NCBI RefSeq assembly: GCF_000760695.4
Contig: NZ_JHEG04000002.1
Coordinates: forward strand, 186,001-250,000
Origin: Tolypothrix bouteillei VB521301
GTDB taxonomy: Bacteria > Cyanobacteriota > Cyanobacteriia > Cyanobacteriales > Nostocaceae
Length of the DNA: 64,000 nt
Direction: 5' to 3'
Position 1 is the first letter of the stretch. Every line of letters begins with the position of its first letter. The notes below the pieces were generated by a model. That model was not told the origin of the DNA. It ran no database searches and saw only the letters and a program-made list of their open reading frames with translations. The translations under genes and the position numbers were made by a program. Positions 9,196 to 25,929 of this stretch are shown piece by piece.

Positions 9196-10998
9196 ATGTC
9201 TTTAAATGTTGAAATTTTAGAGCAAAGTTTTGAAAAAGTTAAACCACACGCTGATGAATTTGTAGCCAGTTTCTACAATAATCTTTTTCAAGCACACCCA
9301 GAGGTAAAGCCGTTATTTGCCAATACTGATATGGCAAATCAACAAAAAAAGCTGTTAAGTTCTCTGGTTCTAGTGGTAGAAAATCTCCGCAGTCCTGAAG
9401 CTTTAGGTTCAGTTCTCAATTCACTAGGAAGTAGACATATTAGCTATGGAGCTATTCCCAATTATTATGGGCTAGTGGGAGAAGCTTTGCTACTGACATT
9501 TGAACAGTATCTGGCTGAAGATTGGACTCCTGAAGTTAAACAAGCTTGGTTAGATGCCTTTACAGCTATTACTGCGTTGATGCTAAATACACCAACAGGA
9601 GTTAAATCTGAGATAGCAGCAAATTCAGAACATCAAGCACTTAAAAAACCAGTTGAGCAAAAACTAGGGGGAATTCCACAGGTAAAACCAGCCGACCAAA
9701 TCTTAACAGAAATACCAGAAGAACCTTTAGAGTTACCTGTAGAAATATTAGTAAACAGTTTTGAAAAAGTTAAACCCCAAGCCGATGAATTTGCAGCCAG
9801 CTTCTACAAAAATCTTTTTCAAGCACATCCAGAAGTGAAACCACTGTTTACTAAAACAGATATGAAAACTCAAGAGAAAAAACTGTTAAATTCTCTGGTT
9901 TTGGTGGTAGAAAATCTCCGCAATCCCGAAGCTTTAGGGACAGTTCTCAAAGCTTTAGGAGCTAGACATACTGGCTATGGTACCATTCCCAAATATTATA
10001 AACCAGTGGGGGAAGCTTTACTGTTGACTTTTGAGCAGTATCTCCAACAAAATTGGACTCCTGAAGTCAAAAAAGCTTGGCTAGACGCTTATAGAGTAAT
10101 TACTGCGTTGATGTTAAAAGGTGCGGGGGAAGAATCTGCACCTAAAGTTGTAGAACAACCTACAAATGTAGCAAAACCTGTCCCATCCGAACAACCTGCA
10201 ACTTGGCAATTTCATACCAAAAGATCGGAACTGTCATTCAGCAAATTCAAGCAAATTCCTCATAAACTGATGGATGCTTTCTGGATAGCACCAACATGGT
10301 TAATCGCTATAGTTTCAGCAGTTCTTTTTGCAGTAGTTGTTGTAATTGTTGATGATAATTCTGTGTTGGGAGAGGTTTTGGGTGCGGCTGACACTGTCAG
10401 TTTGGTGGTGGCGCTAGTTCTATTCATTAAAGAAACTCCAGATCGCCGCAAACAATTTCACTACCAAGCTTGGGGTACAGTTGATGCAGCACATGGGGTG
10501 AAAGTTAGCTATGCCAGAATTTTAGCACTTCAAGATTTGAATGAAGATGGTGTTTCCCTCAGAGGACTAGATGCTCCTGGTGCGGAGTTAGTAGATATTA
10601 ATCTCTCCCATGCTAATTTGAGTAATGCTAATTTAATGACAAGTGATTTGACTAATGCCAATCTCCACTCTGCCAATTTAGATAATGCTAATCTCTGTGA
10701 GGCTAAACTTAGTGGTGCTAATCTAAGTCATGCAAAACTCGGTTTTACTCGCTTGAGTCGAGCTAATCTCAATAGTGCCAAGCTGAATGATGCTAATTTA
10801 ATTTGTGCAGATTTGAGTCATGCCAACCTAAGTGGTGCTAATTTGAAAAATGCAAGTTTGAGTGGTGCTAATTTGCAAGGAGCTTACTTAGGTAGTGCCA
10901 ATCTCAAAAATGCTAAAGTGAGCGAAGCTGAACTCAGTGGTGCTTTTCTAGAAGGTGCAATTATGCCTGATGGTTCAAAATATCGCTCTCAAAATTAA
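9196..10998 (+). CDS. Tandem globin - membrane - pentapeptide-repeat fusion protein
   Basis: A 600-residue fusion. Globin domain 1 is ~1-132 and globin domain 2 ~181-308. Each has B10 Tyr (FYNNLF, FYKNLF), CD1 Phe (PLF), and the proximal His (His81 in SRHISYG; His258 in ARHTGYG). A Pro/Glu-rich linker leads to two membrane helices at ~365-386 and ~393-411, followed by pentapeptide repeats from ~455 to 590 (A(N/D)L pattern such as ANLSNANL), which form a right-handed quadrilateral beta-helix. There is no reductase or cyclase output. It could be a membrane-anchored O2/NO sensor or store with a protein-interaction spine. The ATG at 9196 follows taaggaaataaat, a good ribosome site. Confidence 0.92.
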   Translation: MSLNVEILEQSFEKVKPHADEFVASFYNNLFQAHPEVKPLFANTDMANQQKKLLSSLVLVVENLRSPEALGSVLNSLGSRHISYGAIPNYYGLVGEALLLTFEQYLAEDWTPEVKQAWLDAFTAITALMLNTPTGVKSEIAANSEHQALKKPVEQKLGGIPQVKPADQILTEIPEEPLELPVEILVNSFEKVKPQADEFAASFYKNLFQAHPEVKPLFTKTDMKTQEKKLLNSLVLVVENLRNPEALGTVLKALGARHTGYGTIPKYYKPVGEALLLTFEQYLQQNWTPEVKKAWLDAYRVITALMLKGAGEESAPKVVEQPTNVAKPVPSEQPATWQFHTKRSELSFSKFKQIPHKLMDAFWIAPTWLIAIVSAVLFAVVVVIVDDNSVLGEVLGAADTVSLVVALVLFIKETPDRRKQFHYQAWGTVDAAHGVKVSYARILALQDLNEDGVSLRGLDAPGAELVDINLSHANLSNANLMTSDLTNANLHSANLDNANLCEAKLSGANLSHAKLGFTRLSRANLNSAKLNDANLICADLSHANLSGANLKNASLSGANLQGAYLGSANLKNAKVSEAELSGAFLEGAIMPDGSKYRSQN

Positions 10999-11147
10999 GC
11001 CCAGTACAGTTAGCGCTTACGCTATCGCTACAACCTACATTCCGCACCTGAGTATACAAGGTTGTTGAGACCGTGGTAAGTAGCTTTGTAGAGATTGTAC
11101 GAATACAAATTCCACACCTTAATTACTGAAATAAGTATAAAAAATTG

Positions 11148-11345
11148 CCAGGAATGATAGAGATTCAAAAAGCAGTAACGGCTTTCGACTAACTGCGCGA
11201 TCGCGTTAAAGAAAATCGCAGTTTTTTTGAAGCAGCTACTGCATCACTTTTAAAACGAGTGCAAATATTGCTGGAAAGAGGAGTTCCCAACAGATGGAAT
11301 GGCGTGCGGGTATTTACCGATAATGAAAACGAATATACTTATCTT
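11148..11345 (+). pseudogene. Chimeric fossil: MCP fragment fused to cyclase 3' end
   Basis: Bases ~11148-11255 align without gaps to 15441-15548 inside the methyl-accepting chemotaxis gene (MIEIQKAVTAFD, stop, LRDRVKENRSFFEAATASLL). From ~11256 the sequence instead aligns to 22823-22916, the last codons of the REC-cyclase gene and its 3' flank (RVQILLERGVPNRWNGVRVF). The switch falls at a short shared word (tttagaa in both parents). The reading frame is kept across the junction, but an in-frame TAA replaces a CAA codon. It is a relic of a second or duplicated copy of the downstream operon from which ~7.3 kb was lost. Confidence 0.88.
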
Positions 11346-11417
11346 ATTGTAATTTTATGCAACAATATAAACTGTGTGTGCCAAGCTTAAATGTCAAATA
11401 TACTACCAGGAAAAATA

Positions 11418-12605
11418 ATGAGACAACTGACAGCACCGATATACTTCTACTGCGACCCAAGAGAAGGCGTTCCAGAGGGCAATAAGTTACAGCATTGTTT
11501 GGTTTGTCTGGCAGAAGGCTTTAGAGAATTAGGTATACCTTTTTTTTCTAATGTAAATTATTGGCAGGAGTCCCCAGAACAAAGATATCTGATTCGTCAC
11601 AATCCAGACATTACCCCAAATGATTGTTCTGTAGTTATACTCTCAAATAATTGGTACACTGTTAATCTTCCTTTACCAAGAAATTTGTTTCATCCCAGTC
11701 GAAAGTATTTAACTGTTTATATAGATACAGAAGATGGCGATCGCACTTATATCGACCGACCCGAATTTAAGCAGTTTGACTTCATTTTGAGAAATCACTT
11801 TAACAAACATTTCCATTATGGCGATAATTTTTACCCTTGGCCTTTCGGACTCACTTATCGGATATTGCGAGAGTTAGAGCAAGTCCCTAACTTTCAAGAT
11901 AGAAATAAACACCTACTCATCAATTACAGACATTGGCAAACCAATACCCATTCTGTCAGGCAAATGACTGGTAGCCAGGTGATTCCGCATCTTGCAAAAA
12001 TATTGCCCATTTACAACTATATTGATAGTGAAAAGCCTGTAGATGATTATAACTATCATCATTGGAAACAATCAGGCGGACGCCATTACCCAAGTTACTA
12101 CGAGCGCCTGAAAAATTCAGCTGCATGTGCAGCCTTTGGAGGTTTTTTTATACCCACTTGGTTTAAGCACCCTGGGAGTTTCGCCAGTCGGATTGGAAAG
12201 CGTGTTTTTACTGAGTTGAAATTAAAGTCCAACACAGCCGTACAATGGGATAGCTGGCGATTTTGGGAATCATTAGCAGCAGGATGCGTAACTCTTCACA
12301 TAGATTTTGAGAAATACGGTTTTGCTCTCCCTACAATGCCAAAGAACTGGCAACATTACATCGGGATAGACTTAGATAATGTACAAGAAGCTGTAGATAG
12401 AATAGCAGCACAACCGGAAATTCTTGAAGAAATCGGCACGGCGGGGAGACGTTGGGCATTAGAACACTATAGCCCTGTCCCGATGGCGATCGCCTTTCTC
12501 AAAACAATTGGGTATCACGATCTGCAATGTGCAAGTACATCCAACAACGGACAAGGCTCTTTGAAATCGAGCCGTACTACTAGTGGTCTGTCAACCCAGA
12601 ATTGA
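11418..12605 (+). CDS. Glycosyltransferase-like protein
   Basis: A 395-residue cytosolic protein. The C-terminal half carries WDSWRFWESLAAGCVTLHID and PKNWQHYIGID, then ILEEIGTAGRRWALEHYSP, the pattern of retaining GT-B glycosyltransferases in which a conserved acidic E plus small residues (ESLAAGC) bind the sugar nucleotide. The N-terminal half (YFYCDPREGVPEGNKLQHC, VVILSNNWY) looks like the acceptor domain. The substrate is unknown. I favour the ATG at 11418 (MRQLTAPIYFY), 8 bases after AGGA, over the in-frame ATG at 11391. It stands alone between a pseudogene and a hairpin. Confidence 0.65.
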   Translation: MRQLTAPIYFYCDPREGVPEGNKLQHCLVCLAEGFRELGIPFFSNVNYWQESPEQRYLIRHNPDITPNDCSVVILSNNWYTVNLPLPRNLFHPSRKYLTVYIDTEDGDRTYIDRPEFKQFDFILRNHFNKHFHYGDNFYPWPFGLTYRILRELEQVPNFQDRNKHLLINYRHWQTNTHSVRQMTGSQVIPHLAKILPIYNYIDSEKPVDDYNYHHWKQSGGRHYPSYYERLKNSAACAAFGGFFIPTWFKHPGSFASRIGKRVFTELKLKSNTAVQWDSWRFWESLAAGCVTLHIDFEKYGFALPTMPKNWQHYIGIDLDNVQEAVDRIAAQPEILEEIGTAGRRWALEHYSPVPMAIAFLKTIGYHDLQCASTSNNGQGSLKSSRTTSGLSTQN

Positions 12606-12622
12606 CAGGTGGTTGTTGGGTG

Positions 12623-12647
12623 CTTGGTGCAGCTTTGCTGCACCAAG
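12623..12647 (+). terminator. Perfect 11-bp hairpin after the glycosyltransferase gene
   Basis: cttggtgcagc at 12623-12633 pairs exactly with gctgcaccaag at 12637-12647 over a ttt loop, 18 bases after the stop codon. No T-run follows, so it may be a factor-assisted terminator or a 3'-stabilising hairpin rather than a classic intrinsic terminator. Confidence 0.6.
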
Positions 12648-12803
12648 GCTTATGACAGTTGCGTAAGTCCTGTAAACTTAACAAAATTTTAAACTAGCAG
12701 TTGCGATCTTGCACCTTGGTAGGGGAACAATATGGCAGGCAACAGCTTGTGACTTTCAAAGCTGGCTGTCACCAGACAAGTCCTCTATAAAGCTGAAGGA
12801 GTT

Positions 12804-13019
12804 TTGGCGTTGACTAGATATGAACCACTCAGTATAGATTGTTTGCGATCGCAACAACATTTAGATGGAAGCATCGCTAAGTTTCCCTGTTCGTTTGCAG
12901 AAGCAGTTGCTCCGATCGAAACGTTGGTATTCCAGGAATTTAACCGCCAAATTATTAAAAATCAGCTTTACTATCACGCAAGAGAGCATATAAATACTGA
13001 TGTTATTATTACTTTTTAA
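12804..13019 (+). CDS. Short unknown ORF at the head of the chemosensory operon
   Basis: A 71-residue ORF from a TTG at 12804 with gaagga four bases upstream (12795-12800). It ends 20 bases inside the following cheW, which would give translational coupling. The sequence (MALTRYEPLSIDCLRSQQHL ... FAEAVAPIETLVFQEFNRQI) has no motif I recognise. It could be a small operon-leading protein or simply a leader that couples translation into cheW. Confidence 0.4.
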   Translation: MALTRYEPLSIDCLRSQQHLDGSIAKFPCSFAEAVAPIETLVFQEFNRQIIKNQLYYHAREHINTDVIITF

Positions 13020-13482
13020 TGTAGGAACTCATTCATATGCTATTGAAAGTTCTCATGTGGTTGAAGTGATCCCTAGAGTTGCTTATAGGGAAGTGCATCA
13101 CGTACCAAAATATGTCGCTGGTTTATTTAATTATCGAGGAACCATTGTACCTGTTATTGATTTGTGCCACTTGATTCGAGGAACACCAAGTCAAACACAT
13201 TTAAGTACCCGTGTGATTGTTGTTAGTTATCCTGGTAAAAATAACCTATTGCAGTACATTGGTTTGATGGCAGAACGAGTTGTCAAAACTCTGAACAAGT
13301 CAAAAACGGAGTTTGTTTCCTCAGGGTTGCTAGCACATGAAGTTCCATATTTGGGGGAAATGATTATGGACGAAAAAGGAATGATTCAGCATATTCATCT
13401 AGCTCGTTTATTTACGAATTTACAACAAATCAATTTGTTAGAACCAAAAGAGGGAAAAACAAATGACGTTAACAGCTATTGA
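13000..13482 (+). CDS. cheW: CheW coupling protein, WspB-like
   Basis: A 160-residue CheW-domain protein that would link chemoreceptors to the CheA kinase. Diagnostic residues are FNVGTHSYAIE near the start, VVEVIPR, and the core VAGLFNYRGTIVPVIDLCHL. It begins the operon cheW-cheR-MCP-cheW-cheA-cheB-cyclase and overlaps the next gene by 20 bases, implying coupled translation. The position next to a TPR-carrying CheR matches wspB-wspC of the Wsp system. Confidence 0.9.
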   Translation: MLLLLFNVGTHSYAIESSHVVEVIPRVAYREVHHVPKYVAGLFNYRGTIVPVIDLCHLIRGTPSQTHLSTRVIVVSYPGKNNLLQYIGLMAERVVKTLNKSKTEFVSSGLLAHEVPYLGEMIMDEKGMIQHIHLARLFTNLQQINLLEPKEGKTNDVNSY

Positions 13483-14743
13483 AACCCTTTTGAGTCAAAG
13501 AATTGGAATAGATGCTAGTATAATAGGCTCTCGCAAAATTTCTAAAGTAGTGGATAAGCGCCTTTCTGCTTGCGGGCTATCTAATATAGAAACTTATCTC
13601 AAGCTTCTACAAACCTCTCCACAGGAATTTGAAGAACTCGTGGAACAAATCGTTGTTCCAGAAACCTGGTTTTTTCGCGATCGCAAATCCTTTGATTTTC
13701 TCATCAATTTTGTTCGCTCTGAATGGTTACCCAAATTCTGTCATACCAAACTTCGTGTTTTGAGTGTACCCTGCTCGAGTGGTGAAGAACCTTACTCAAT
13801 CGCTATTGCTTTGATGGAAGCGGGATTACGCACAGATCGGTTTAGCATTGATGCTATTGATATTAGCAAACATGCGATCGCCAAAGCACAGCAAGCAATT
13901 TATAGCAAAAATTCATTCCGTGGTGAAGAATTTGTTGAACGCAATCGCTATTTTCAACAAACAGCCGAGGGCTTTGAAGTTCTACCATCTATTCGCAGTC
14001 AAGTCACTTTTCGACAGAGCAATATTTTGAGTGCATTTTCTGTTATTCAAGCCAAGTATAATGTCATCTTTTGCCGCAATTTATTAATTTATCTTAAACC
14101 ATCTACCTGCACTCAAGTCCTCAATCTTGTCGAACGACTGTTACTCCCTAACGGGTTGCTTTTTGTTGGCTCTTCGGAAACTGGAAAAATCAAGAGCGAT
14201 CGCTTTACACCCATTCGCCAGTCTTTTACCTTTGCCTACTGTAAGGTTGAGAGTAGCCAATTGCCAATACAAAAAATAGAATTAAAAAAAGACAAACACA
14301 TACAACTTAATAAGTTCAATCAAAAGCCAATCCGACACTTGTCTTCTTGTCTCAAGAAAACACCCACCGCTTCTACCATTAGTTACACTAAAACACAATC
14401 CACTATTCATCAACCGAATATTACGCAACCTCATGAAAATCTTCACATAGCTAAAAAATTAGCTGATGAAGGACAAGTGGAAGTAGCAATTCATTATTGC
14501 AAACAGTATCTCGAGAGCGAGCAAACTAGTGCGGAAGCTCATGTTTTATTGGGTACACTATACCAGGCAAAAACTGAGTACAATCAGGCGGAACGGTGTT
14601 TCCAAAAAGCTCTTTATCTCAATCCAAACTGTTATGAAGCATTGATGCAGCTTGCTCTCCTAAAAGAATATCGCGGAGATCTAGTGAGTGCATCAATTCT
14701 TCAGCAACGAATCCAAAAGTTAAGGATAGGGATTAAGGAGTAG
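13463..14743 (+). CDS. cheR: CheR-type receptor methyltransferase with C-terminal TPRs, WspC-like
   Basis: A 426-residue SAM-dependent glutamate methyltransferase for chemoreceptors. The N-terminal helical domain is ~1-70; the SAM-binding domain has VPETWFFRDRKSF, LSVPCSSGEEPYSIA (motif I), IDAIDIS, and FCRNLLIYL (motif IV). A low-complexity linker (~270-325) leads to tetratricopeptide repeats at ~330-420 (ADEGQVEVAIHYCKQYLE, AEAHVLLGTLYQAKTEYNQA). A CheR with C-terminal TPRs is the WspC arrangement. It adapts the MCP encoded just downstream. Confidence 0.93.
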   Translation: MTLTAIETLLSQRIGIDASIIGSRKISKVVDKRLSACGLSNIETYLKLLQTSPQEFEELVEQIVVPETWFFRDRKSFDFLINFVRSEWLPKFCHTKLRVLSVPCSSGEEPYSIAIALMEAGLRTDRFSIDAIDISKHAIAKAQQAIYSKNSFRGEEFVERNRYFQQTAEGFEVLPSIRSQVTFRQSNILSAFSVIQAKYNVIFCRNLLIYLKPSTCTQVLNLVERLLLPNGLLFVGSSETGKIKSDRFTPIRQSFTFAYCKVESSQLPIQKIELKKDKHIQLNKFNQKPIRHLSSCLKKTPTASTISYTKTQSTIHQPNITQPHENLHIAKKLADEGQVEVAIHYCKQYLESEQTSAEAHVLLGTLYQAKTEYNQAERCFQKALYLNPNCYEALMQLALLKEYRGDLVSASILQQRIQKLRIGIKE

Positions 14744-14943
14744 GGATTAGGAGCTAGAGGGTAAGTCACAGTCATTCCTTGTCATACCATTTTGGATTGA
14801 AAAAGTTGTACTTAGATTGAATTTTACCAAATAGTCCGTCTCACTCTTTTCCAATTGGTATCAACACCTTTTCTCTGACTTTTACTTCCCTACCACCTAT
14901 CTCATACCCCCTAAACGTTATCTTCTACCCTCAACCTCCTAAT

Positions 14944-16701
14944 ATGTTAAGCAATACATTTAAAAATCAATCCTTGCAAGGTCGAATCATGACCTCCTTC
15001 ATTTTGATGGGTATATTAATTCTCATTGTAGCTGTGGTAGGCTTGTTTGCCACATTTCGTCTGAGTAGCAATATTAATACATTAAGTAATAACAGTTTAC
15101 CCAGTATAGTTGGATTGTGGAAAGTCAATGAAGGTCAAACGCAAATAGAATCCTCAGAAAGAGCTTTATTAATTCCAGGACAAACATTACAAGAACGGCA
15201 AACTGAATTGGAAAGAATCAAAAATGCTTGGAAACAAATTAATGAGGGCTTTAAGCAATACGAAGAGACACCTCGAAGTGAAGAAGAAGATAGAAACTAT
15301 AAGAAATTGTTAGACAACTGGGATAAATGGAAAAACAACCATGAGGAATTTCTCAGAATTGAACGACAGTTTGAAAGTATGGAAATTCTCAATCCTTATG
15401 CTAAAGAAATGGAACTTTGGCGTCAAGGAAAAGGAACTTCACCAGAAATGACAGAAATTCAAAAAGCAGTGACGGCTTTCGACCAAATGCGCGAGCGCGT
15501 AAAAGGAAATCGCAATTCTTTTGAAGCAGCCACTACATCACTTTTAGAATCAATCAGAATTAATGAGGACACGGCTTCAAAAGCTGATAAATCGTCTGAA
15601 GATGATATCAGCCAATCACGATTCGCAACCATTATTGCCATATTGATTGGACCTGCGATCGCTATCTTCTTTGGCAAATATTTCAGCAATATCATTGCCA
15701 AACCTTTGGGAGCTAAGATTGCAGGAGTTGTGGATGTTGCTCAAAGAATATCAGGTGGCGATCTCACCACACAAATTCAACTTTCCGAACAAGAAGACGA
15801 GATTGGCAAGCTGCAAAGAGCTTTTCACACCATGAGTAAAGACTTGAACGCTCTGATTCGTCGCGTTCAACAATCAGGGGTACAAATTACAACCTCTACA
15901 ACTCAAATTGCTGCTTCTGGAAAAGAATTGGAGGCTACAGTTGCAGAACAACTCGCATCAACCAAAGAAGTCACAACAACAGCTCGTGAAATTGCTGTCA
16001 CCTCTAAAGGACTTGTGAAAACAATGGAGCAAGTTGCAGATATGGCTCAAGCCACTGCGATCGCAGCGAGTGATAGCCAAGATGAACTTGCAGAGATGGA
16101 AAGCGTGATGCGACAGCTTGCAGAAGCAACCACCTCCATTACTTCAAAGCTGGGCATCATGAATAAAAAAGCTGGTAACATTAATAACGTTGTCGTTACC
16201 ATCACCAAAGTTGCCGACCAGACCAGCATTCTATCTTTGAATGCAGCCATTGAAGCAGAAAAAGCAGGAGAATACGGAGCAGGCTTTGCTGTCGTAGCAC
16301 GAGAAATCCGACGCCTTGCCAATCAAACTGCAGTCGCCACTTTAGAAATCGAGCAGATTGTCAAAGATATGCAATCAGCTGTAGCTGGTGGAGTGATGGA
16401 AATGGATAAATTCAACAATTCTGTCAGCAGTAGTGTTGACCGGATTGGCAAGATTAGCAACCAGATTGGTGCAGTCATTCATCAAGTGCAGAGTTTACCT
16501 CCCCAGTTTGAACAAGTCAGTCAAAGCGTAGAAGAACAATCTTTTGGGGCGCACCAAATTAGCGAAGCCATGGCGCAATTGACAGAAGCATCCCATCAAA
16601 CAGTAGATGCTTTACGCGAAACCAATAGCGCCTTAGAGCAATTAGATGATGCCGCCCAAGCATTACGAGGAGAAATTTCTCGCTTTAAAGTACAAAGTTA
16701 G
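14944..16701 (+). CDS. Methyl-accepting chemotaxis protein, WspA-like
   Basis: A 585-residue transmembrane chemoreceptor. TM1 is at ~15-38, an all-helical four-helix-bundle-type sensor domain spans ~40-220, TM2 is at ~225-250, then a HAMP domain (~253-305: KPLGAKIAGVVDVAQRISGG) and the cytoplasmic signalling coil with its hairpin tip (NAAIEAEKAGEYGAGFAVVA). The ligand is unknown. It lies 200 bp behind cheR and 8 bp before the second cheW. A fragment of a paralogous copy lies at 11148-11255. Confidence 0.95.
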   Translation: MLSNTFKNQSLQGRIMTSFILMGILILIVAVVGLFATFRLSSNINTLSNNSLPSIVGLWKVNEGQTQIESSERALLIPGQTLQERQTELERIKNAWKQINEGFKQYEETPRSEEEDRNYKKLLDNWDKWKNNHEEFLRIERQFESMEILNPYAKEMELWRQGKGTSPEMTEIQKAVTAFDQMRERVKGNRNSFEAATTSLLESIRINEDTASKADKSSEDDISQSRFATIIAILIGPAIAIFFGKYFSNIIAKPLGAKIAGVVDVAQRISGGDLTTQIQLSEQEDEIGKLQRAFHTMSKDLNALIRRVQQSGVQITTSTTQIAASGKELEATVAEQLASTKEVTTTAREIAVTSKGLVKTMEQVADMAQATAIAASDSQDELAEMESVMRQLAEATTSITSKLGIMNKKAGNINNVVVTITKVADQTSILSLNAAIEAEKAGEYGAGFAVVAREIRRLANQTAVATLEIEQIVKDMQSAVAGGVMEMDKFNNSVSSSVDRIGKISNQIGAVIHQVQSLPPQFEQVSQSVEEQSFGAHQISEAMAQLTEASHQTVDALRETNSALEQLDDAAQALRGEISRFKVQS

Positions 16702-16709
16702 GGGTCTGT

Positions 16710-17381
16710 ATGTTAAATGATTGCTGGAATCAAATTGGAGTCATGGGCGATCGCTCCTGTAGCGAATTAAAAACCGTAATTCACTGCCATGACTGTCCTG
16801 TTTACGCCGCCGTAGGCGATAGTTTGCTAGAACGAGATCCCCCACTCAACTACATGGATGAGTGGATGAATATTCTCTCAGAAACACCCGTTGATGAAGA
16901 AACCGAAAGCAATGAAGCGATTATCAGGACAGAGGAAGCCATTTCCATCGTCATCTTTCGACTTGCTCGGGAGCGATTGGCTTTTCCAGTGGTCATTTTG
17001 CAAGAAGTGACTCATCCATGCGTGATTCAACCTCTACCCCACCGGAGCAACGAGTTATTTTTAGGATTGGTGAACATTCGTGGGGAAACATTACTTTGTG
17101 CTTCTCTCAGTTACCTGCTGAATCTGCAAACAACAGAAGAAACTTCTCACGATATCAAACGAATGATCGTAGCAGGACAAGGGAACGACAAATGGGTTTT
17201 TCCAGTTGATGAAGTTCATGGAATTTACCGCTTTCACTCTCAGGAGTTACGGGATGCTCCCGTTGTGATTACTAAAGCTACTCAAGGTTATACCAAAGGA
17301 ATCATTCATTGGCAGGGAGAAAAAGTGAATTATCTGGACTCTGAATTGTTGTTTTACACTCTCAATCACAAAATTTTGTAG
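16710..17381 (+). CDS. cheW: CheW with N-terminal cysteine cluster, WspD-like
   Basis: A 223-residue protein. Residues ~1-35 hold a Cys/His cluster (DCWNQIGVMGDRSCSEL followed by IHCHDCPVYAAVG, with CxxC at the end), and residues ~70-220 are a CheW domain (LFLGLVNIRGETLLCASLSY, WVFPVDEVHGIYRF). From memory this N-terminal pattern is that of WspD, the second CheW of Wsp systems; the cysteines could bind a metal. The gene begins 8 bp after the MCP stop. Confidence 0.9.
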   Translation: MLNDCWNQIGVMGDRSCSELKTVIHCHDCPVYAAVGDSLLERDPPLNYMDEWMNILSETPVDEETESNEAIIRTEEAISIVIFRLARERLAFPVVILQEVTHPCVIQPLPHRSNELFLGLVNIRGETLLCASLSYLLNLQTTEETSHDIKRMIVAGQGNDKWVFPVDEVHGIYRFHSQELRDAPVVITKATQGYTKGIIHWQGEKVNYLDSELLFYTLNHKIL

Positions 17382-17435
17382 CGGTGAGGGATTAGGAGGT
17401 AGGGAATAATTATTAACTAACAATTAATTCGATCT

Positions 17436-20312
17436 ATGAATGAATACTCCGTAATGGATCTGTTTCGTCAAGAGATTCAAGCTCAGGTGACAATCTTTCG
17501 GGAAACTCTTGAGATACTAAGAACGCAGCCCTTTTCCATGACAGAACTCGAACAAGCAACTCAAGCAGCTCATTCAGTATGGGGAACTGCTCGACTTGTA
17601 GAGTTGGAGGTTGCTTCTGACTTGGCGCAAGTTATGAAGCAGTGTTTTATGGCTGCTCAAGATAAAACTGTAACGCTTGGTGAAGAGCAGATCGAGCTTT
17701 TACTTCATGCTAGCGATTTACTTTTGAGTATGAGCAAAGCAGCAGATGGAGATTTCAAGCAATGGCTCTCAGATTATTCTTGGGATTTAGCCACGACTCA
17801 AAAGGCAATTTCAATCTTACCGACTGTAAATGTACTACAATTAGAGGACATTCATGCTGTAAATGTACTGAAAATTGAAATAAAGACAGCACAATTAGAT
17901 ACAACGGATTCTGTAAATGCATTGCCTAGCGAGACTCCCGTACCGCCATCAGATGCAACTCATTCTGTAACGACCCTAACAGGCGATGATGATGGTTCAA
18001 TGATGGATCTGTTTCGTTTGGAAGCAGAAGCGCAAATTACTGTCATGAATGAAGGGCTGTTAGCCCTAGAAAGCAATCCTCACTCAGCACAAGTATTGGA
18101 AACATTAATGCGAGCCGCTCACTCAATTAAAGGGTCTGCTCGAATCGTTGCACTTGATGCGGTGGTTAACTTGGCTCATGTTATGGAAGATTGCTTTGTA
18201 GCAGCGCAAAATAAAACCATAACTTTAGATTCCGACCGAGTTGATGTACTGCTCCAAGCAGTAGATTTATTGCAAGGCATCAGCGAGGTGAGCAATGCAG
18301 ATTTACATCAATGGCTGGCTAACAATGAAGCAGCTTTTGAACGGATGCGAGTCTCTGTAGAGACTATTTTAAATCCCAAAGCGGCACCTTTACTTATCCA
18401 AGAGAACACTTCTAACGCTCCCGTTCCTGTTTCATCTCTACTGGGAACTGAATTAAATCCCGATTCAGCGCTTGTTGTGGTGAACCAATCTCCACCACCT
18501 GCTCAAGTAATGGTTCAGGAGCGTTCGGAATTGACTGCTCCTTCTAGTTCTGCATCCGAACAGATTGCTGTTCAAGATAGAGTGGTGCGGGTCAGTGCTG
18601 AAAATTTGAACCGGATTATGGGTTTGGCGGGGGAGTCATTGATTGAAGCGAACTGGTTGCAACCTCATGCAGATTCTATGATGTCTCTCAAATGGCGTCT
18701 TGTCGAACTTTCTAGAACTTTAGAACATTTGCAAGATGCTCTTGACAGAGGAGCATATCAACAAGATGGGAAGGAATACTTGGAGGAGGCGCGACAACGG
18801 GAGCAAGAATGTCTTGATTTTTTGAGCGATCGCCTCAACGAATTGGAGCTTTATGCTCAACGAACTGCTAATCTCTCGGATCGTCTTTATCGGGAAGTTA
18901 TTACTTCCCACATGCGCCCCTTTGCTGATGGCGTACAGAGTTTTCCACGCATGATTCGCGACTTAGCACGCAAGCTGAACAAGCAGGTAAATTTAGAAAT
19001 TGTTGGTAAAGCAACATCGGTGGATCGCGACATTCTTAAAAAACTGGAAGCACCTCTGACTCACATTCTCAGGAATGCTGTGGATCACGGAATTGAACTT
19101 CCAGAGGAACGTGCTGCTACAGGAAAACCAAGTGCAGGTACAATCCGTTTGGAAGCTTTCCATCGAGGAGGTATGTTAGCAATTACTATTGCTGACGATG
19201 GTCAAGGTATAGATCCAGAGCAGTTGCGCCAGAAAGTTATTAATAAAAACCTGACAACGGCTGAGATAGCAACTCAACTCTCAATTAGCGAACTGATGGA
19301 GTTCCTGTTTTTACCAGGATTTTCCACAGCAAAACAGGTGACTGAAATTTCCGGGCGTGGTGTTGGGTTAGATATTGCCAAGAGTATGGCGCAAGAAGTC
19401 GGTGGAACGGTGCGTGCTGTTTCTCAAAAAGGATTGGGAACAAGTTTCCACTTTCAATTACCTTTGACACTCTCTGTTGTTCGCACGCTACTAGTTGAAA
19501 TTTCTGGAAGACCTTATGCCATTCCCTTAGCTAGAATTGGTCACATTATCACAGTGGAACGTTCAGATGTTTCTGATGTCGAGAATAAACAATATTTCAC
19601 GATGAATCAGAAAAATATTGGTTTGATTGCTGCTCATCAGATTCTAGAACTCAGCGAACCCTCACCCACGTCCGGACCACTTTCGGTGGTTGTGGTTAGC
19701 GATCGCGATGATACCTATGGATTGGTCGTCGATAAATTTCTCGGCGAACACGATTTGGTTGTCAGACCTCTAGATCCCCGCTTGGGGAAAGTTCCCGATA
19801 TCAGTGCAACATCCTTACTCAGCGATGGGTCACCAGTTCTGATTGTGGATGTCTCGGACATAGTGCGCTCGATGGATGCCATTCTGAATGCAGGACAACT
19901 GACCAAAGTTGGTGTTGTCACAGCAGAAGAAATGGCAAACAAGCGTAAGAAAATTTTAGTCGTTGATGATTCTATTACGGTAAGAGAAATGGAGCGCAAG
20001 TTGTTGGAGAACCGGGGTTATCAAGTGGATGTTGCTGTTAATGGTATGGAAGGATGGAGCGCTGTTCGCACCAACCATTACGACTTGGTCATCAGCGATA
20101 TTGATATGCCACGAATGAATGGAATTGAACTCGTTCGGCAAATCAAGAATCATCCCCGCCTGCACTCTCTACCTACCATCGTTATGTCCTACCGAGACCG
20201 GGAGGAAGACCGCCTTCAAGGCTTAGAAGCAGGTGCAAATTACTACTTGACAAAAAGTAGTTTTCATGATGATACGCTGATAAATGCTGTTGTCGATTTA
20301 ATAGGTCGTTAA
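17436..20312 (+). CDS. cheA: Hybrid CheA kinase with two Hpt domains and a receiver, WspE-like
   Basis: A 958-residue histidine kinase. Two phosphotransfer domains are visible: His46 ([13 protein letters not shown], a degenerate version) and His229 ([13 protein letters not shown], canonical). Then come a dimerisation helix pair, the HATPase domain ([21 protein letters not shown]-box, [11 protein letters not shown]1, [13 protein letters not shown]2), a CheW-like regulatory domain (~680-815), and a C-terminal receiver at 838-958 with Asp888 (ISDIDMP). CheA-REC is the WspE architecture. The first Hpt looks like a decayed duplicate of the second. Confidence 0.95.
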
Positions 20313-20316
20313 TATT

Positions 20317-21351
20317 ATGAGAATTGCCATCGTTAACGACTTAGCCATTGCTGTAGCGGCGCTCCAAAGAGTCTTGTTAAAAGTTCCCGATTATCAAGTT
20401 ATCTGGGTTGCTCGTGATGGAGCCGAAGCAGTTGCCAAATGCAAACAAGATACACCAGATCTAATCTTAATGGATCTGGTGATGCCTGTGATGGATGGGG
20501 TAGAAGCAACTCGTCAGATCGTGCAAAACTTTTCTTGTGCGGTTCTGATTGTGACGGTGAGTGCAGAGCAAAATGTTGCCAAAGTCTACGAAGCAATGGG
20601 TTATGGCGCACTTGATGCTGTTGATACTCCAGTCTTAGGTCAAGAAAGCGCTCAGACAGCAAACCAGTTATTAACGAAAATTTCCAGAATCCGCAAACTG
20701 CTGAAAGTCTCTCCCACAAATACAAAGCCATCTGTTCGATCTCCTCAGTTAGAGCGGCGTAACAATCTCGTGTCTGGAACCTCTTTAATTGCTATTGGTT
20801 CTTCAACAGGCGGACCGAAAGCACTCGCCTCGATTTTGTCAAAGTTACCCGCCAATTTTCCTGCAGCGATCGCCATTGTTCAGCACGTTGATGCCGATTT
20901 TTCAGCAGGATTTGTGGAGTGGTTAAACCAACAAACAGCATTGCCGGTGAGATTAGCCATTGCAGGCGATCGTTTGCAAGCGGGGACAGTTCTCGTTGCT
21001 GGTACAAACGACCACCTGTATTTAAAGCCGGACTTAACCCTCAGTTACATCAAAGAACCGATAAATTATCCTTACCGTCCATCTGTTGATGTCTTTTTCA
21101 AAAGTCTCGCCCAACACTGGACGCGTCAGGGAATTGCTGTGCTGTTAACGGGAATGGGAAGAGACGGTGCTCTTGGCTTAAGTGCCTTGAAAACTCAAGG
21201 TTGGCATACTATTGCCCAAGACAAAGCAAGTTGTGTGGTGTATGGAATGCCCAAAGCGGCGGTTGAGTTAGATGCAGCTGTAGAAATTTTATCCCCTGAT
21301 GCCATCGGCTCTGCACTCACTTCTAGCCCTTATTTAAAATCCAAAATCTAA
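20317..21351 (+). CDS. cheB: CheB receptor methylesterase, WspF-like
   Basis: A 344-residue two-domain protein. The receiver (1-~120) starts [20 protein letters not shown], resembling WspF as I recall it, with phosphoacceptor Asp53 ([17 protein letters not shown]). The methylesterase domain (~150-340) shows the catalytic Ser in [10 protein letters not shown], His in [11 protein letters not shown], and Asp in [10 protein letters not shown]. It removes methyl groups (or deamidates) from the MCP. It follows cheA by 4 bp, so it is co-translated. Confidence 0.95.
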
Positions 21352-21383
21352 AACCTCCAATCTCCCCATCTCTCAATCCCCCA

Positions 21384-22895
21384 ATGGACGAGCAAATCAC
21401 TGTATTACTTATTGACGACCAATCCATCATCGGTGAAGCCATTTCTCGAATGCTCGCTCCCGAAAAGGATATTGTGTTTCATTACTGTAGCGATCCGACC
21501 CAAGCAATTAAAGTCGCCAAAGATTCCCAACCAACTGTTATTCTGCAAGATTTGGTTATGCCACAAATGCAAGGGCTGCTGTTGGTAAAATTTCTGCGTT
21601 CCAAAGATGCACCCACTTGCAATATTCCTCTCATTGTGCTGTCTAGTAAAGAAGAACCTGTTATCAAAGCCAAAGCATTTGAACTTGGGGCAAATGATTA
21701 TTTAGTCAAACTACCCGATCGCATGGAGTTAATTGCTCGCATTCGCTATCACTCAAAAGCTTACATTAACTTTCTCAAGCGATTGGAAGCGGAAGCCCTC
21801 TTCAAAGCTGAAATTCTCCGTCAAGCAGCATATATAGAGCAGGTTGATAAGGTAACATCTGCAGCGAGTGATGTAGAACGAGATGCTTTTCAACCAGAGG
21901 CTCTTGCAGAAGTTACCAAACGCAGCGATGAACTCGGACAGCTAGCAAGAGTCTTTACCAACATGGTGAAAACCGTCAAAACACGGGAAAAAGAGCTAAC
22001 AAGTGCCAACGCTCAGTTAGAGTCTTTGTTAAAAGCTTACGGGCGGTTTGTACCTCACGAATATTTGCGGTTTTTACGCAAACAAACGATTACGGATGTG
22101 CAACTGGGCGACCACGTCAGCAAAATAATGGCGGTTATGTTCAGCGACATTCGCTCCTTCACAACCATTTCTGAGACTATGACACCCCAGGACAATTTTA
22201 ATTTTGTCAATGCTTATTGCAAGCGTGTCAGCCCTGAAATTCGCTCTCACTACGGTCTTATTGTTAAATTTTTAGGTGATGGGATGATGGCTGTGTTTCC
22301 TGAAGGGGCTGATGATGCGGTGGCATCTGGAGTTGCCAAACTCAAACGGGTTCAAGAATATAATAAAGAACGTGCGGTGAAAGGTTATTTTCCCCTCCAT
22401 ATAGGCATAGGGATTCATGTCGGGCATGTGATGTTAGGTATGGTGGGTGAAGAAAACCGGATGCAGGGGGATGCTTTGTCCGACACTGTTAACCTGACAG
22501 CTCGCTTGGAAGGGCTGACGAAATTTTATGGTGTGTCAATGCTGATCTCCGAGCAAGTGCTGCGTCATCTTAGTAGCCCAGAAAAGTATCAGATTCGGTT
22601 TTTGGATCGGGTAATTGTCAAGGGACGGACGGAAGCGATCGCCGTTTATGAAGTCCTCGATGCAGAAATTGAAGAAGTTCAAATCCGAAAACTGCAAACA
22701 CAATCAGAGTTTGAGCGAGGTTTGGAATCCTACAAGAACGGTGAGTTAGAACTAGCAAAAACGTATTTTGAAAAAGTACTTGCTATCCATCCTTTAGATA
22801 AGACAGCGATGCTTTATTTAGAACGGGTGCAAACATTGCAGGAAAGAGGAGTTCCTAACAACTGGAATGGCGTGTGGACATTTACTGAGAAATGA
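21384..22895 (+). CDS. Receiver - class III adenylate cyclase response regulator
   Basis: A 503-residue output protein. The receiver (1-~125) has Asp56 in TVILQDLVMP and the stretch IVLSSKEEPVIKAKAFELGA followed by NDYLVKLPDRMELIARIRYH, which I recognise as WspR-like. A linker/HAMP-like region (~165-215) follows. The class III cyclase domain (~245-425) has metal Asp255 (FSDIRSFT) and Asp299 (KFLGDGMM), adenine-specifying Lys295 and Asp367 (SDTVNLTARLE), and Asn370/Arg374. A helical, TPR-like tail ends the protein. Lys/Asp at the base-selecting positions favours ATP, hence cAMP. It begins 32 bp after cheB and is the only dedicated response regulator of the operon. Confidence 0.93.
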   Translation: MDEQITVLLIDDQSIIGEAISRMLAPEKDIVFHYCSDPTQAIKVAKDSQPTVILQDLVMPQMQGLLLVKFLRSKDAPTCNIPLIVLSSKEEPVIKAKAFELGANDYLVKLPDRMELIARIRYHSKAYINFLKRLEAEALFKAEILRQAAYIEQVDKVTSAASDVERDAFQPEALAEVTKRSDELGQLARVFTNMVKTVKTREKELTSANAQLESLLKAYGRFVPHEYLRFLRKQTITDVQLGDHVSKIMAVMFSDIRSFTTISETMTPQDNFNFVNAYCKRVSPEIRSHYGLIVKFLGDGMMAVFPEGADDAVASGVAKLKRVQEYNKERAVKGYFPLHIGIGIHVGHVMLGMVGEENRMQGDALSDTVNLTARLEGLTKFYGVSMLISEQVLRHLSSPEKYQIRFLDRVIVKGRTEAIAVYEVLDAEIEEVQIRKLQTQSEFERGLESYKNGELELAKTYFEKVLAIHPLDKTAMLYLERVQTLQERGVPNNWNGVWTFTEK

Positions 22896-22942
22896 AAACC
22901 AAGATAATACTTACCTGAGTGCGATCGCTCAATGTATCCCGT

Positions 22943-23152
22943 TTAAAAATTGTTGAAATTTACTGTAAGCGTCTGCCCTCCCACCATCACTTCATCACCC
23001 GGTACTAATTTCCGTCTTCGCCTGGTTTCAACTGAACCATTGACTTTGACATCGCCTCCCTGAATCATCAGTTTTGCTTGCCCACCAGTCGGAGTGACAC
23101 CCATCAACTTCAAAAACTTGTCTAATTCAATTGTACTGTTGCTTGTGTCCAT
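22943..23152 (-). CDS. S4-domain RNA-binding protein (YaaA/YbcJ-like)
   Basis: A 69-residue protein that is almost entirely an S4 RNA-binding fold: IELDKFLKLMGVTPTGGQAK, LMIQGGDVKVNGSVETRRRR, KLVPGDEVMVGG. Such stand-alone S4 proteins associate with ribosomal or transfer RNA. It is convergent with the cyclase gene and sits 46 bp downstream of the tRNA-like gene on the same strand. Confidence 0.88.
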   Translation of the reverse strand: MDTSNSTIELDKFLKLMGVTPTGGQAKLMIQGGDVKVNGSVETRRRRKLVPGDEVMVGGQTLTVNFNNF

Positions 23153-23198
23153 AAGCCGTGGGAGAAGTAATATCCAAGCATTTTTACCGGGACAGAAG

Positions 23199-23270
23199 TT
23201 TTAGGGGCAGGGCTCGAACCTGCGTCCAGTCGGTCCAGAGCCAACCGCTCTACCACTGAGCTACCCTGTT
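23199..23270 (-). tRNA. tRNA-Gln(CUG)-like gene with imperfect acceptor stem
   Basis: The minus strand folds into a cloverleaf: D-stem GCTC/GAGC with loop AGTGGTA, anticodon stem GTTGG/CCGAC with loop CTCTGGA (anticodon CUG, glutamine), T-stem GCAGG/CCTGC with loop TTCGAGC. The acceptor AACAGGG/CCCTAAA pairs only at four of seven positions, and CCA is not encoded. The three arms are too regular for chance, but the frayed acceptor leaves open a tRNA pseudogene or an att-derived remnant. It abuts the stop of the 23273-24694 gene. Confidence 0.6.
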
Positions 23271-23272
23271 GT

Positions 23273-24694
23273 CTATTCTACTTTATTGCTCCGATCCTGC
23301 AATCTTTCATGATGTTTTTGTAACGTACTGCGATGTATCTCATCTCCTATTGGGATATCGCGCTTAATTGTTTTGCCAGAGAAGAACCCTGAATTACGCA
23401 AGACTTCAGCCAACATGGGATTAGCGACCGAAACTCCATGCACCAGTTCCGGTGTTGCTTTAAATGCAACTGGTTTGCCAGAAGGACGTGGGACAGTCCA
23501 TCCCTTCTTTACTGGATCGACATTATGTTTTCGACAAGTTGATTCAACCAGATTGAGGTTGCACGATTGCTGACCAGATAGAATTTCCCAAGGTAGCGGG
23601 AGTTCATTCCAAATGAATGTGTCGGGATCGAGTCCGGAACCGACACTGTAGTGCCATGCAACAACATCGGCTGCCATAAGGCTCAGCACTTTACCGAAAC
23701 AGATGGTTTGAAGAATCTCTTCTGCCCCCATTGCATAAAGTAGTGCCATCCAGTTATCCCTGGCTGTGTTCCAAGCACTTGCTGTATTATTCCAAGTGCT
23801 AGAATCATTGCCGCGACGGACAACCATAGTGGAACGGTTGATGTTAGAGCGCTCCCATACATCTAGGAGTAATCTGGCAATCTCCTCAAGAATTCCATAC
23901 CATCGCCCCAACAGTTCTCCTTTTTGGGCATCGCTCAGATAAGCCAGAACCTCTTGTGTAGGATAGACATGAGCGATCGCCCACCAGTTTGTATTTGCAC
24001 TGTTTCGGCAACGCTTGAAAAGCACATCAGCAATCTCATCGTATGGACGCTGCTGACCATAAATTGTAAACTCACTCCGCAAGTTGCAGCGGGCAGTGTA
24101 GTAGGCAATGAAACATGCAGTGTCGCGATCGGTCGAAAAGTCTCCCCATGGCAGGCTATGAGCCAGTCCAGACTTTCCAACTTTTGTAAACATGAGCTTC
24201 TTCAACTCGTAAATCAGCTTATGCAGCTTAGCTTCCATTCGAGCCAGGTGACGAAAAAGTTTGTTGTAGCGCCGCTTTGAGATATCCATCCCGCACTCAT
24301 GCCGTTCGTTACGATTTAAGCGATCTGCTTTGAAATCATTGCTACCAAAAGACTTATGAATCTCCTGGCTGATATGACGAATAAACTGTTCAACAGCATC
24401 GGGATGGTCACAGGCTTCAGTGTCTAATGGATAGGCAGTTGTAAATAACTCCATCGCTTTGTTCACCTGACGTTGCAAACCAATAGGCTTAGCAAAATCT
24501 TGCAACATTGAGGTATAGCCGAAGAAGTGTTGCCGCAGAGAACCTTTAGCTGCCTTTTGTAAAGAGGACTGCTCGGCTTGGTTTAATTGATTCTGTAGTA
24601 ACTCAAGAATGTTATCAGCAACATCTTCTGGGCGTCTGCGCTGATTGAGGGAACGATAAAGCCATTGCATTCGAGCGTCATTTGTTATATTCAC
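23273..24694 (-). CDS. Unrecognised 473-residue soluble protein next to the tRNA-like gene
   Basis: A long intact ORF starting MNITNDARMQWLYRSLNQRR and ending QKHHERLQDRSNKVE. It is basic, helix-rich and unusually rich in Trp, Arg and His, with no membrane segment, no Walker motif and no nuclease signature I can name. Its stop codon lies two bases from the end of the tRNA-like gene, the classic place for a gene brought in by a tRNA-targeting island, and the region beyond is full of mobile-element debris. I cannot assign a function. Confidence 0.7.
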   Translation of the reverse strand: MNITNDARMQWLYRSLNQRRRPEDVADNILELLQNQLNQAEQSSLQKAAKGSLRQHFFGYTSMLQDFAKPIGLQRQVNKAMELFTTAYPLDTEACDHPDAVEQFIRHISQEIHKSFGSNDFKADRLNRNERHECGMDISKRRYNKLFRHLARMEAKLHKLIYELKKLMFTKVGKSGLAHSLPWGDFSTDRDTACFIAYYTARCNLRSEFTIYGQQRPYDEIADVLFKRCRNSANTNWWAIAHVYPTQEVLAYLSDAQKGELLGRWYGILEEIARLLLDVWERSNINRSTMVVRRGNDSSTWNNTASAWNTARDNWMALLYAMGAEEILQTICFGKVLSLMAADVVAWHYSVGSGLDPDTFIWNELPLPWEILSGQQSCNLNLVESTCRKHNVDPVKKGWTVPRPSGKPVAFKATPELVHGVSVANPMLAEVLRNSGFFSGKTIKRDIPIGDEIHRSTLQKHHERLQDRSNKVE

Positions 24695-25040
24695 TTCGTT
24701 TACCAGCCCAACAGACGAAGCCTAGCCTACCATTATAACATTATTGCCACTTCAGCGATTTACCAGACTCGTTTCGACCTCAGAAAAAATCAGGCTAAGC
24801 AGTCACTGGGTGCGAGCATCGGTCATTTGCGCTTATAGAACCCATCCTTTACAAAGCTTGCTGGAAGTGCGAGCTTGCGTTGCGATCGATGATAGCCTTT
24901 GCAGCCGCATCGCATGAGCACAACATACAAATTAGCTTTTCTTATGAATACTATTTATATTGATAAGTCAAGCACTCTTGATATTTTGTAACAATATCGT
25001 TATATTTATTTACATAAGTTAATAAATAAGGAAACGAGCT
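24695..25040. promoter_or_regulatory. Divergent intergenic region before the Psb34-like gene
   Basis: No ORF. The right half becomes very AT-rich (ttgtaacaatatcgttatat and following), typical of promoter DNA for small cyanobacterial stress or photosystem proteins, and ends in the ribosome site aaggaaac before 25041. Confidence 0.4.
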
Positions 25041-25211
25041 ATGTACACCACTGTTAACGAAGATGGCATCCTCAACAACTATCCAACCGAAACAAAAATG
25101 CAGTTTGCTGAATACCCTGCAATTTGGGAACAGCGTCAATATCTTATCCAAGGCGTGTTTGCTACATTACTTGTCGCTACTCTCGTTCTGGTTGCTTTTA
25201 CTGCTAGTTAA
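25041..25211 (+). CDS. Psb34-like (ssl1498 family) small photosystem II assembly protein
   Basis: A 56-residue protein, MYTTVNEDGILNNYPTETKM ..., with the conserved LNNY(A/P)xE N-terminal signature and a single membrane helix at ~35-55 (GVFATLLVATLVLVAFTAS). This pattern fits the ssl1498/Psb34 family, which binds PSII assembly intermediates and resembles high-light-inducible proteins. aaggaaac lies 8 bases before the ATG. The assignment is from the remembered motif, so another small Hli-like protein is possible, but the gene itself is convincing. Confidence 0.7.
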   Translation: MYTTVNEDGILNNYPTETKMQFAEYPAIWEQRQYLIQGVFATLLVATLVLVAFTAS

Positions 25212-25524
25212 GACGAGTAGATTTGCTTCAAACTTCAATCGACAATTGGTTTTCATGTTCTCCCTAGCGATCGAGGCTGGGGTTTTTCCATTGAAAGAGC
25301 GTTATCTCAAAGTAACTGCAAGTGTAAGTGCAATATGGCTGTACTCATAGCAGGCAGTTGGCTTATCTCACTGTGGATAGAGGTGACATACTAAAATAAA
25401 CCAGATTTGACACTCCTCAATTTCACTCAACAATTCAATTAGGCTTTCAAGCATACTATGAATAGAAAGCAATATTAAAGCTTTTCAATCACAACTAATT
25501 TAATCACAAATTCGGAGAAAAAAG
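25212..25524. other. Intergenic region with a dispersed 21-bp repeat
   Basis: No gene recognised. Bases 25271-25291 (starting tcgaggctggggtttttcca) recur exactly at 29873-29893, in another gene-poor part of the island. The right end is AT-rich and supplies the promoter and ribosome site (ttcggagaaaaaag) of the crystallin gene. Confidence 0.5.
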
Positions 25525-25881: not shown

Positions 25882-25929
25882 TTCTAAGAGGCGGATAATT
25901 CCTCCCAGAGTTCCTCTGTTGTAAGATTT

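Follow-up and report, generated by a model that had tools for sequence, protein, structure and literature searches.

A Wsp-type chemosensory operon of Tolypothrix bouteillei with a putative receiver-gated adenylate cyclase in the WspR position

The terminal regulator and the Wsp core

The genome of Tolypothrix bouteillei VB521301 (GCF_000760695.4) harbors a chemosensory gene cluster within a 64,000-nucleotide stretch of contig NZ_JHEG04000002.1 (positions 186,001 to 250,000 of the forward strand), hereafter the window. The open reading frame (ORF) list and Pfam placed seven genes on one strand at 13000-22895 of the window, coding for CheW, CheR-TPR, a methyl-accepting chemotaxis protein (MCP), a CheW with a Cys motif, a CheA-REC hybrid kinase, CheB, and a response regulator composed of a receiver (REC) and a class III cyclase. 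On the evidence of sequence, the cluster is probably a chemosensory operon of the Wsp type that ends in a receiver-gated adenylate cyclase as its response regulator. An earlier note, made from the DNA letters without database searches, had described the same seven genes and had matched the first six one to one to wspB, C, A, D, E, and F; both observations agree with the Pfam domains and the gene order.

The receiver of the terminal regulator is, by sequence, of the WspR type. Its top matches in PDB were 3bre (E 3.3e-44) and 3i5a (E 4e-43), and the next full-length receiver protein, PleD, scored E 2.4e-14. The PDB listing names 3bre and 3i5a just as response regulators; we take both to be WspR. 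When 18 cyanobacterial and proteobacterial receivers were aligned, 45 positions proved invariant, including Asp11, Asp12, Asp56, Ser87, and Lys109, and the receivers of all five proteobacterial Wsp/WspR comparators (L090-L094) were 58-65% identical to that of the window. In a receiver tree of 134 rows, 112 WspR-type receivers were separated from 22 others by a branch with a Shimodaira–Hasegawa-like approximate likelihood ratio (SH-aLRT) support of 99. These 22 were either receivers encoded beside GGDEF or cyclase genes or the receivers of CheA and CheB in the window and its relatives, with two rows repeating the CheA and CheB receivers of the window itself. Columns are few in this tree and many of its forks weak, and receivers shorter than 115 residues or identical to others were left out. 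The earlier note had called the receiver WspR-like and had named a grouping away from WspR as the outcome that would speak against it; the receiver did not group away, and the motif quoted for it was found at residues 86-113 of the last protein.

In place of the GGDEF output of WspR, the regulator carries PF00211 and is therefore not itself a WspR. The residues Asp255, Asp299, Lys295, Asp363, Asn370, and Arg374 were invariant in 38 of 38 aligned sequences, i.e., the window protein and 37 homologues chosen from 120 listed. They represent the two metal-binding aspartates (D255 and D299), the adenine pair Lys295/Asp363, and the transition-state residues Asn370/Arg374, which is the pattern of class III adenylate cyclases. 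A class III cyclase in the place of GGDEF, as noted earlier, is borne out by PF00211 and the ATP-type residues. Of the base-selecting pair proposed at that time, Lys295 was retained and Asp367 gave way on the alignment to Asp363; Asp367 is invariant too, at a different motif position. Asp363 lies seven residues before Asn370 and is aligned with Gly in Cya2 and with Thr in photoactivated cyclases. Adenylate cyclases have been described with Lys plus Asp and the guanylate cyclase Cya2 with Glu plus Gly (PMC4215837), and adenylate cyclase activity was seen in the E488K variant of Cya2 (PMC5995499). Cyclic AMP (cAMP) is the predicted product of the window cyclase because the conserved Lys295/Asp363 pair matches the residues described for adenylate cyclases.

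The architecture given earlier, receiver plus cyclase, holds for these two domains, and it missed a HAMP-like segment between them and a C-terminal TPR-like segment. In the HAMP-like segment, PF00672 matched homologue L125 below the cut-off (E 0.0028) and is precomputed for homologue P0120. The structure model contains the receiver, a long helix continuing its last helix, helices 171-178 and 183-218, the cyclase, and C-terminal helices; in this model, helices 171-178 and 183-218 would fit a HAMP-like unit. A further regulator variant was seen in five homologues of 617 aa (P0093, P0102, P0103, P0108, and P0119), in which a PAS_4 domain is added to the receiver and cyclase.

CheW, CheR-TPR, MCP, the second CheW, CheA-REC, and CheB, which make up the Wsp core gene set, are all encoded in the one cluster. 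In the CheA tree, from which L173 and L177 (short CheA) and L129 were left out, 88 wsp-type kinases, Pseudomonas included, formed one clade (SH-aLRT 100) against seven other CheA proteins of the window's own genome. The N-terminal Cys motif was observed in 79 of 84 second-CheW ORFs vs. none of 75 first-CheW ORFs, with a pattern broadened after inspection of the misses (46/84 with the stricter pattern). It is present in the second CheW of the window and also in the WspD-position proteins of Azoarcus and Mesorhizobium. The gene set and order, the protein families, the active-site residues, and the kinship of receiver and kinase to Wsp are established at the sequence level. In Pseudomonas, Wsp is a surface-sensing system with cyclic di-GMP as the signal that it makes. 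Two proteobacterial proteins in the WspA position have a sensor of the same broad four-helix bundle (4HB) class as the window receptor; surface sensing by the window operon would be only an analogy.

Among 15 distinct window-type loci, 11 carry CheA, CheB, CheR, and the WspD-type CheW on the strand of the regulator, and CheB is present in 14. Of the other four loci, L072 and L131 have the second CheW, CheA, and CheB, L071 has CheB only, and L125 has no che gene. In L072 (1051-3677), from a Moorena metagenome-assembled genome (MAG), CheA is split over two successive open frames. In line with the earlier note, which had seen no stand-alone CheY, no single-domain receiver was found in 11 Pfam-scanned ORFs of the 13 (at least 100 aa) listed for window 10000-26000, the other two being overlapping frames of 110 and 118 aa.

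Outputs carried by the WspR-type receiver

Full-length relatives (at least 69% identity; three candidates scored per genome) were found in 9 of 386 cyanobacterial genomes, that of T. bouteillei included; an 81% homologue, P0013, comes from Anabaena sp. PCC 7108. Of the 386 genomes, 23 have WspR-type receivers (E <= 1e-25; ten candidates scored per genome), at 26 places in total. The outputs at these 26 places, assigned by Pfam for 11 and by similarity labels for the others, were the window-type cyclase (9), histidine kinase (8), a second cyclase type termed AC2 (4), SpoIIE (4), and hybrid kinase (1); GGDEF was found at none. The genome of T. bouteillei has 42 GGDEF matches, and GGDEF domains are therefore not lacking there. 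Outside the 386-genome sample, the receiver is joined to SpoIIE, GGDEF, kinases, or an enzyme predicted to be a guanylate cyclase. The sampled loci of Pseudomonas and Burkholderiales have a GGDEF output, and one cyanobacterial REC-GGDEF case was found in Pseudanabaena (L153).

A scan of named genomes provided a wider sample of 80 loci, whose record titles, many of them of MAGs, name at least eight phyla. These are the best 80 of 565 confirmed stretches from a two-motif search, ranked by likeness to the window, and are not an unbiased census. Pooled with the others, 115 regulators labeled by similarity comprised SpoIIE (41), GGDEF (30), AC1, i.e., the window-type cyclase (17, two of them duplicates), kinase (12), AC2 (6), AC3 (5), and hybrid kinase (4). 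L129 and L130, which lie on the same contigs as L072 and L071, were dropped from the locus counts; L165, whose cyclase is interrupted by a run of unknown bases, was counted as AC3 and left out of the cyclase tree. Pfam confirmed the SpoIIE label for 15 of 15 submitted proteins. At the SpoIIE loci L074-L076 and L135, the regulator precedes CheB, and no CheA was present in the fetched DNA. From these sequences, the receiver of the WspR type works like a socket for output domains.

Adjacent WspR-type regulators with differing outputs were observed at L148 (9962-12791; cyclase and SpoIIE) and L156 (9765-14294; hybrid kinase and kinase). In two gammaproteobacterial records, L162 and L183, REC-GGDEF and REC-SpoIIE both lie around one wsp-type operon. 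On the large contig of the T. bouteillei assembly (L086; G000:C1:4556000-4575500), a WspR-type receiver with the output REC-HisKA-HATPase ends a wsp-type operon.

In a tree of 54 cyclase domains, AC1, AC2, and AC3 each fell among different non-Wsp cyclases, the 29 non-Wsp members, taken from the T. bouteillei genome and from top matches in related genomes, being an incomplete sample. A single group of all 25 Wsp cyclases was rejected (p 5e-9), as were AC1 with AC2 (p 2e-6) and AC1 with AC3 (p 9e-10). By these sequence trees, the Wsp-type cyclases were acquired from at least three lineages. The selecting Lys was found in six of six AC2 proteins and the Asp in the five where the pattern showed it. 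The four uncut AC3 proteins (L141, L143, L148, and L155) have Glu and Gly at the selecting positions, and cyclic GMP (cGMP) is predicted as their product because this is the Cya2 pair.

In a concatenated CheA, CheB, and receiver tree of 44 operons, 13 AC1 operons and two SpoIIE operons formed one clade (100/100). The same tree split 35 cyanobacterial operons from nine chosen outside ones, five of which carry GGDEF (97/94), and it placed the cyanobacterial GGDEF operon L153 among the cyanobacterial operons. Nine cyanobacterial loci (L071, L074, L075, L076, L085, L125, L132, L135, and L156) were left out because receiver, CheA, and CheB were not all present or the locus was not put forward. AC1 also grouped with SpoIIE in the receiver tree (SH-aLRT 93) and the CheA tree (98). 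CheA was present in the fetched DNA at three of eight cyanobacterial SpoIIE loci, and that of the third, L134, lies outside the AC1/SpoIIE group. The receiver tree nests AC1 within SpoIIE and the CheA tree nests two SpoIIE operons within AC1, so the change may have run from SpoIIE to cyclase or the reverse. A clade of AC1 and GGDEF receivers was disfavored (approximately unbiased, AU, test, p 0.021). The earlier note had spoken of a Wsp system rewired from cyclic di-GMP (c-di-GMP) to cAMP; since the nearest operons on three trees carry SpoIIE, and in view of the AU test, such a direct step is not supported. These sequence comparisons indicate that the output domain has been exchanged repeatedly within the Wsp-type lineage and that SpoIIE-phosphatase operons are the nearest relatives of the window arrangement. 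The trees conflict on the oldest output: SpoIIE operons branch first in the CheA tree rooted with outside CheA, and among receivers, a very long branch joins the outside rows to the tree nearest to GGDEF. At L134 of Brasilonema (9995-14223), where an MscS homologue follows, the receiver groups with the AC1/SpoIIE set and the CheA with Iningainema, a mismatch which suggests that regulators were exchanged between operons.

Gene layout and candidate effectors

The contig of the window (C2) has 454,739 bases and the other, large contig of the assembly 9.49 Mb. The successive intergenic spacings in the cluster, calculated from the ORF coordinates, are -20, 200, 8, 54, 4, and 32 bp. The start of the cluster had been placed at 12804; its true start is the ATG of cheW, and 12804 begins a separate frame. 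The latter resembles the N-terminal part of HD-like proteins of 336 and 368 aa adjoining two related operons (L065 and L072), whose HD domain scored weakly in Pfam (E 0.014 and 0.076, below cut-off). The frame is probably a shortened remnant of an HD-like protein gene that overlaps the cheW start. Further features of the window are a protein that combines two globin-domain stretches with pentapeptide repeats (9196-10998) and a small beta/gamma-crystallin-like protein (25525-25881).

Table 1. Features of the Wsp-type cluster (positions in the window).
Feature	Position	Strand	Evidence
71-codon TTG frame, HD-like N-terminal match	12804..13019	+	tblastn E 5e-7 and 4e-6; phmmer E 1.9e-6
CheW (WspB position), 160 aa	13000..13482	+	PF01584 E 2e-21
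CheR-TPR methyltransferase (WspC position), 426 aa	13463..14743	+	PF01739 E 2e-43, PF00515
MCP, 4HB sensor + HAMP + signaling domain (WspA position), 585 aa	14944..16701	+	PF12729, PF02203, PF00672, PF00015
CheW with N-terminal Cys motif (WspD position), 223 aa	16710..17381	+	PF01584
CheA-REC hybrid kinase, two Hpt regions (WspE position), 958 aa	17436..20312	+	PF01627 (two stretches), PF02518, PF01584, PF00072
CheB methylesterase (WspF position), 344 aa	20317..21351	+	PF00072 + PF01339; NF009206 464.5 bits, cut-off 342
REC – HAMP-like – class III cyclase – TPR-like response regulator (WspR position), 503 aa	21384..22895	+	PF00072, PF00211; 3bre E 3.3e-44 on receiver
WspR-type receiver, Asp11/Asp12, Asp56, Ser87, Lys109	21384..21803	+	alignment of 18 receivers; tree
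Signaling helix + HAMP-like segment, residues ~141-218	21804..22037	+	model helices 113-165, 171-178, 183-218
Class III nucleotide cyclase domain, residues 249-419	22128..22640	+	PF00211 E 4e-19

A gene with a cyclic-nucleotide-binding (CNB) domain was considered as the effector of the predicted cAMP and none was found in the window; the only matches on the same contig were at C2:357930 and, below cut-off, C2:328981. The whole genome has 36 CNB-domain matches outside the window, 32 of them above cut-off. Genes for MscS-CNB channels accompany related operons in Phormidium tanganyikae (L128; on the strand of cheW and 74 bp upstream of it), Iningainema tapete (L141, an AC3 operon; between cheA and cheB), and Moorena (L072/L129; on the opposite strand, two genes and 2.5 kb downstream), and at L070, a protein with two CNB domains is encoded 0.9 kb after the regulator gene. 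With a small hidden Markov model (HMM) seeded from three positive loci, which favors the result, CNB was detected at 4 of 26 distinct cyclase-type loci vs. 1 of 83 others (one-sided Fisher p 0.011) and, among cyanobacteria alone, at 4 of 22 vs. 0 of 22 (p 0.054), the counts being post hoc and made over unequal flanks. With the Pfam CNB model on whole genomes, a match within 5 kb of the operon was found in two of nine window-type vs. none of 14 other-output genomes among the matches listed (p 0.14), where the 14 include four with AC2 cyclases. The association of CNB/MscS genes with cyclase-type operons is statistically weak and suggestive only, because the count was post hoc, the flanks unequal, the HMM seeded from positives, and the whole-genome p 0.14.

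MscS homologues were present at the SpoIIE loci L073, L132 (partial), L133, and L134, and no CNB domain was found in them by the HMM scan. Sulfate-permease-family genes lie upstream of two window-type operons (L128, 1-737; L137, 1-1285), with cNMP-binding matches just beyond, on the same strand and in long frames, if the contigs are correctly identified from their coordinates; this suggests that these frames carry a fused binding domain.

Alternative explanations and relation to known Wsp systems

In the favored explanation, a 4HB receptor array, coupled through both CheW proteins and with CheR-TPR and CheB to tune it, would control the CheA-REC kinase, which would phosphorylate Asp56 of the WspR-type receiver. 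The change in the receiver would pass through the helix and the HAMP-like segment to a presumed cyclase dimer, and the predicted synthesis of cAMP from ATP would rise or fall with the receiver state. Several observations weigh against it. Pfam calls no HAMP in the HAMP-like segment of the window protein; the structure model has a mean predicted confidence score (pLDDT) of 72.5, with low confidence in the cyclase part; and the window has no detected CNB domain. The cyclase regulator occurs at L125 with no che gene in 20 kb and at L071, on the same contig as L130, with CheB only, and may therefore be served by other kinases. Cross-talk is possible, since the genome has a second wsp-type operon, with a kinase output (L086).

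It is unlikely that a REC-GGDEF protein encoded elsewhere is the true WspR, with the cyclase a neighbor under other control. The 42 GGDEF matches of the genome would allow it, and in Phormidesmis, two REC-GGDEF proteins modelled on WspR are listed elsewhere in the genome, the same idea having been considered by Chrismas et al. (PMC4971617); against it, the WspR-type receiver is itself fused to the cyclase, the only other receiver of this type in the genome (E <= 1e-25) belongs to the kinase fusion that ends its own wsp-type operon, and GGDEF was seen at 0 of 26 cyanobacterial places at that threshold, with the single case of L153 outside the sample. We consider it similarly improbable that the operon is a real Wsp-type one whose cyclase yields cGMP or some product other than cAMP, or lacks activity while the receiver acts by binding. 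The Glu/Gly pair of the related AC3 operons would fit a cGMP product, but in the window-type proteins, Lys295/Asp363, both metal aspartates, and Asn/Arg are kept in 38 of 38, and the former pair is that described for ATP users (PMC4215837). A c-di-GMP Wsp system with REC-GGDEF rewired directly to cAMP appears very unlikely. GGDEF outputs in the Pseudomonas and Burkholderiales loci and in L153 are in line with such a step, and the attachment of outside receivers nearest the GGDEF rows means that GGDEF may be the older output overall; the grouping of the window type with SpoIIE on receiver, CheA, and concatenated trees, together with the AU test, argues against it.

The arrangement itself is not new. 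In Phormidesmis priestleyi BC1401, as in the window, wspB-C-A-D-E-F lie on one strand, and the place of WspR is taken by a class 3 adenylate cyclase (Chrismas et al. 2016, PMC4971617). This is the sole cyanobacterial report found in a search that mostly covered literature outside subscription journals. The paper calls the regulators and effectors of this operon unclear and reports a Wsp system also for L. boryana PCC 6306 and Geitlerinema PCC 7407. Its accessible text makes no mention of a WspR-type receiver on the cyclase and looks for WspR among GGDEF proteins encoded elsewhere. In Phormidesmis, wspB is preceded by a cyclic-nucleotide-binding gene (PMC4971617); none was found in the window. 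The window operon shares with proteobacterial Wsp the six core proteins, the hybrid CheA, the WspR-type receiver, and the Cys motif of WspD. It differs in gene order, B-C-A-D-E-F-R as against A-B-C-D-E-F-R in the annotated Azoarcus and Mesorhizobium loci, and in its output, a class III cyclase as against GGDEF in the proteobacterial WspR comparators.

The WspH protein of Burkholderia likewise places a WspR-like receiver on a non-GGDEF output in a Wsp operon, but its output is a histidine kinase (PMC8552884). The same paper states, from a GenBank synteny search with proteobacterial queries, that all Wsp systems appear to use WspH or WspR exclusively. The statement of the earlier note that known Wsp systems signal through c-di-GMP omitted both this kinase output and the 2016 cyanobacterial report, and so holds in part. 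The CheR-TPR cluster with a multidomain regulator is, judged by Pfam, a feature of the chemosensory class with alternative cellular functions (ACF). Multidomain regulators of CheR-TPR/ACF clusters include mononucleotidyl cyclase, phosphatase, kinase, and GGDEF outputs (PMC3447774). That survey counts domains across clusters and, in its accessible parts, neither singles out a WspR-type receiver lineage nor tests output exchange on trees. The receiver-level link, the repeated output exchange, the three cyclase sources, and the channel neighbors seem to be new in the literature searched.

A wider reading is put forward only tentatively. The WspR-type receiver may be an ancient plug-in socket across at least eight phyla, by which a single kinase array would act through any enzyme fused to that receiver (GGDEF, SpoIIE phosphatase, kinase, adenylate cyclase, or predicted guanylate cyclase), with c-di-GMP one derived case; in some cyanobacteria, the operon may be a complete contact-to-channel circuit, in which the cyclic nucleotide would open a co-encoded MscS-CNB channel. 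Wsp systems are generally regarded as acting through c-di-GMP. If one receiver lineage took at least five enzyme types, with class III cyclases from at least three sources, what a Wsp system controls would not be readable from its kinase genes, and the receiver would be a natural test of how a phosphorylation switch becomes independent of its output. For cyanobacteria, the operon would link a chemosensory array to cAMP, and possibly to ion channels, by a specific route defined at the level of genes.

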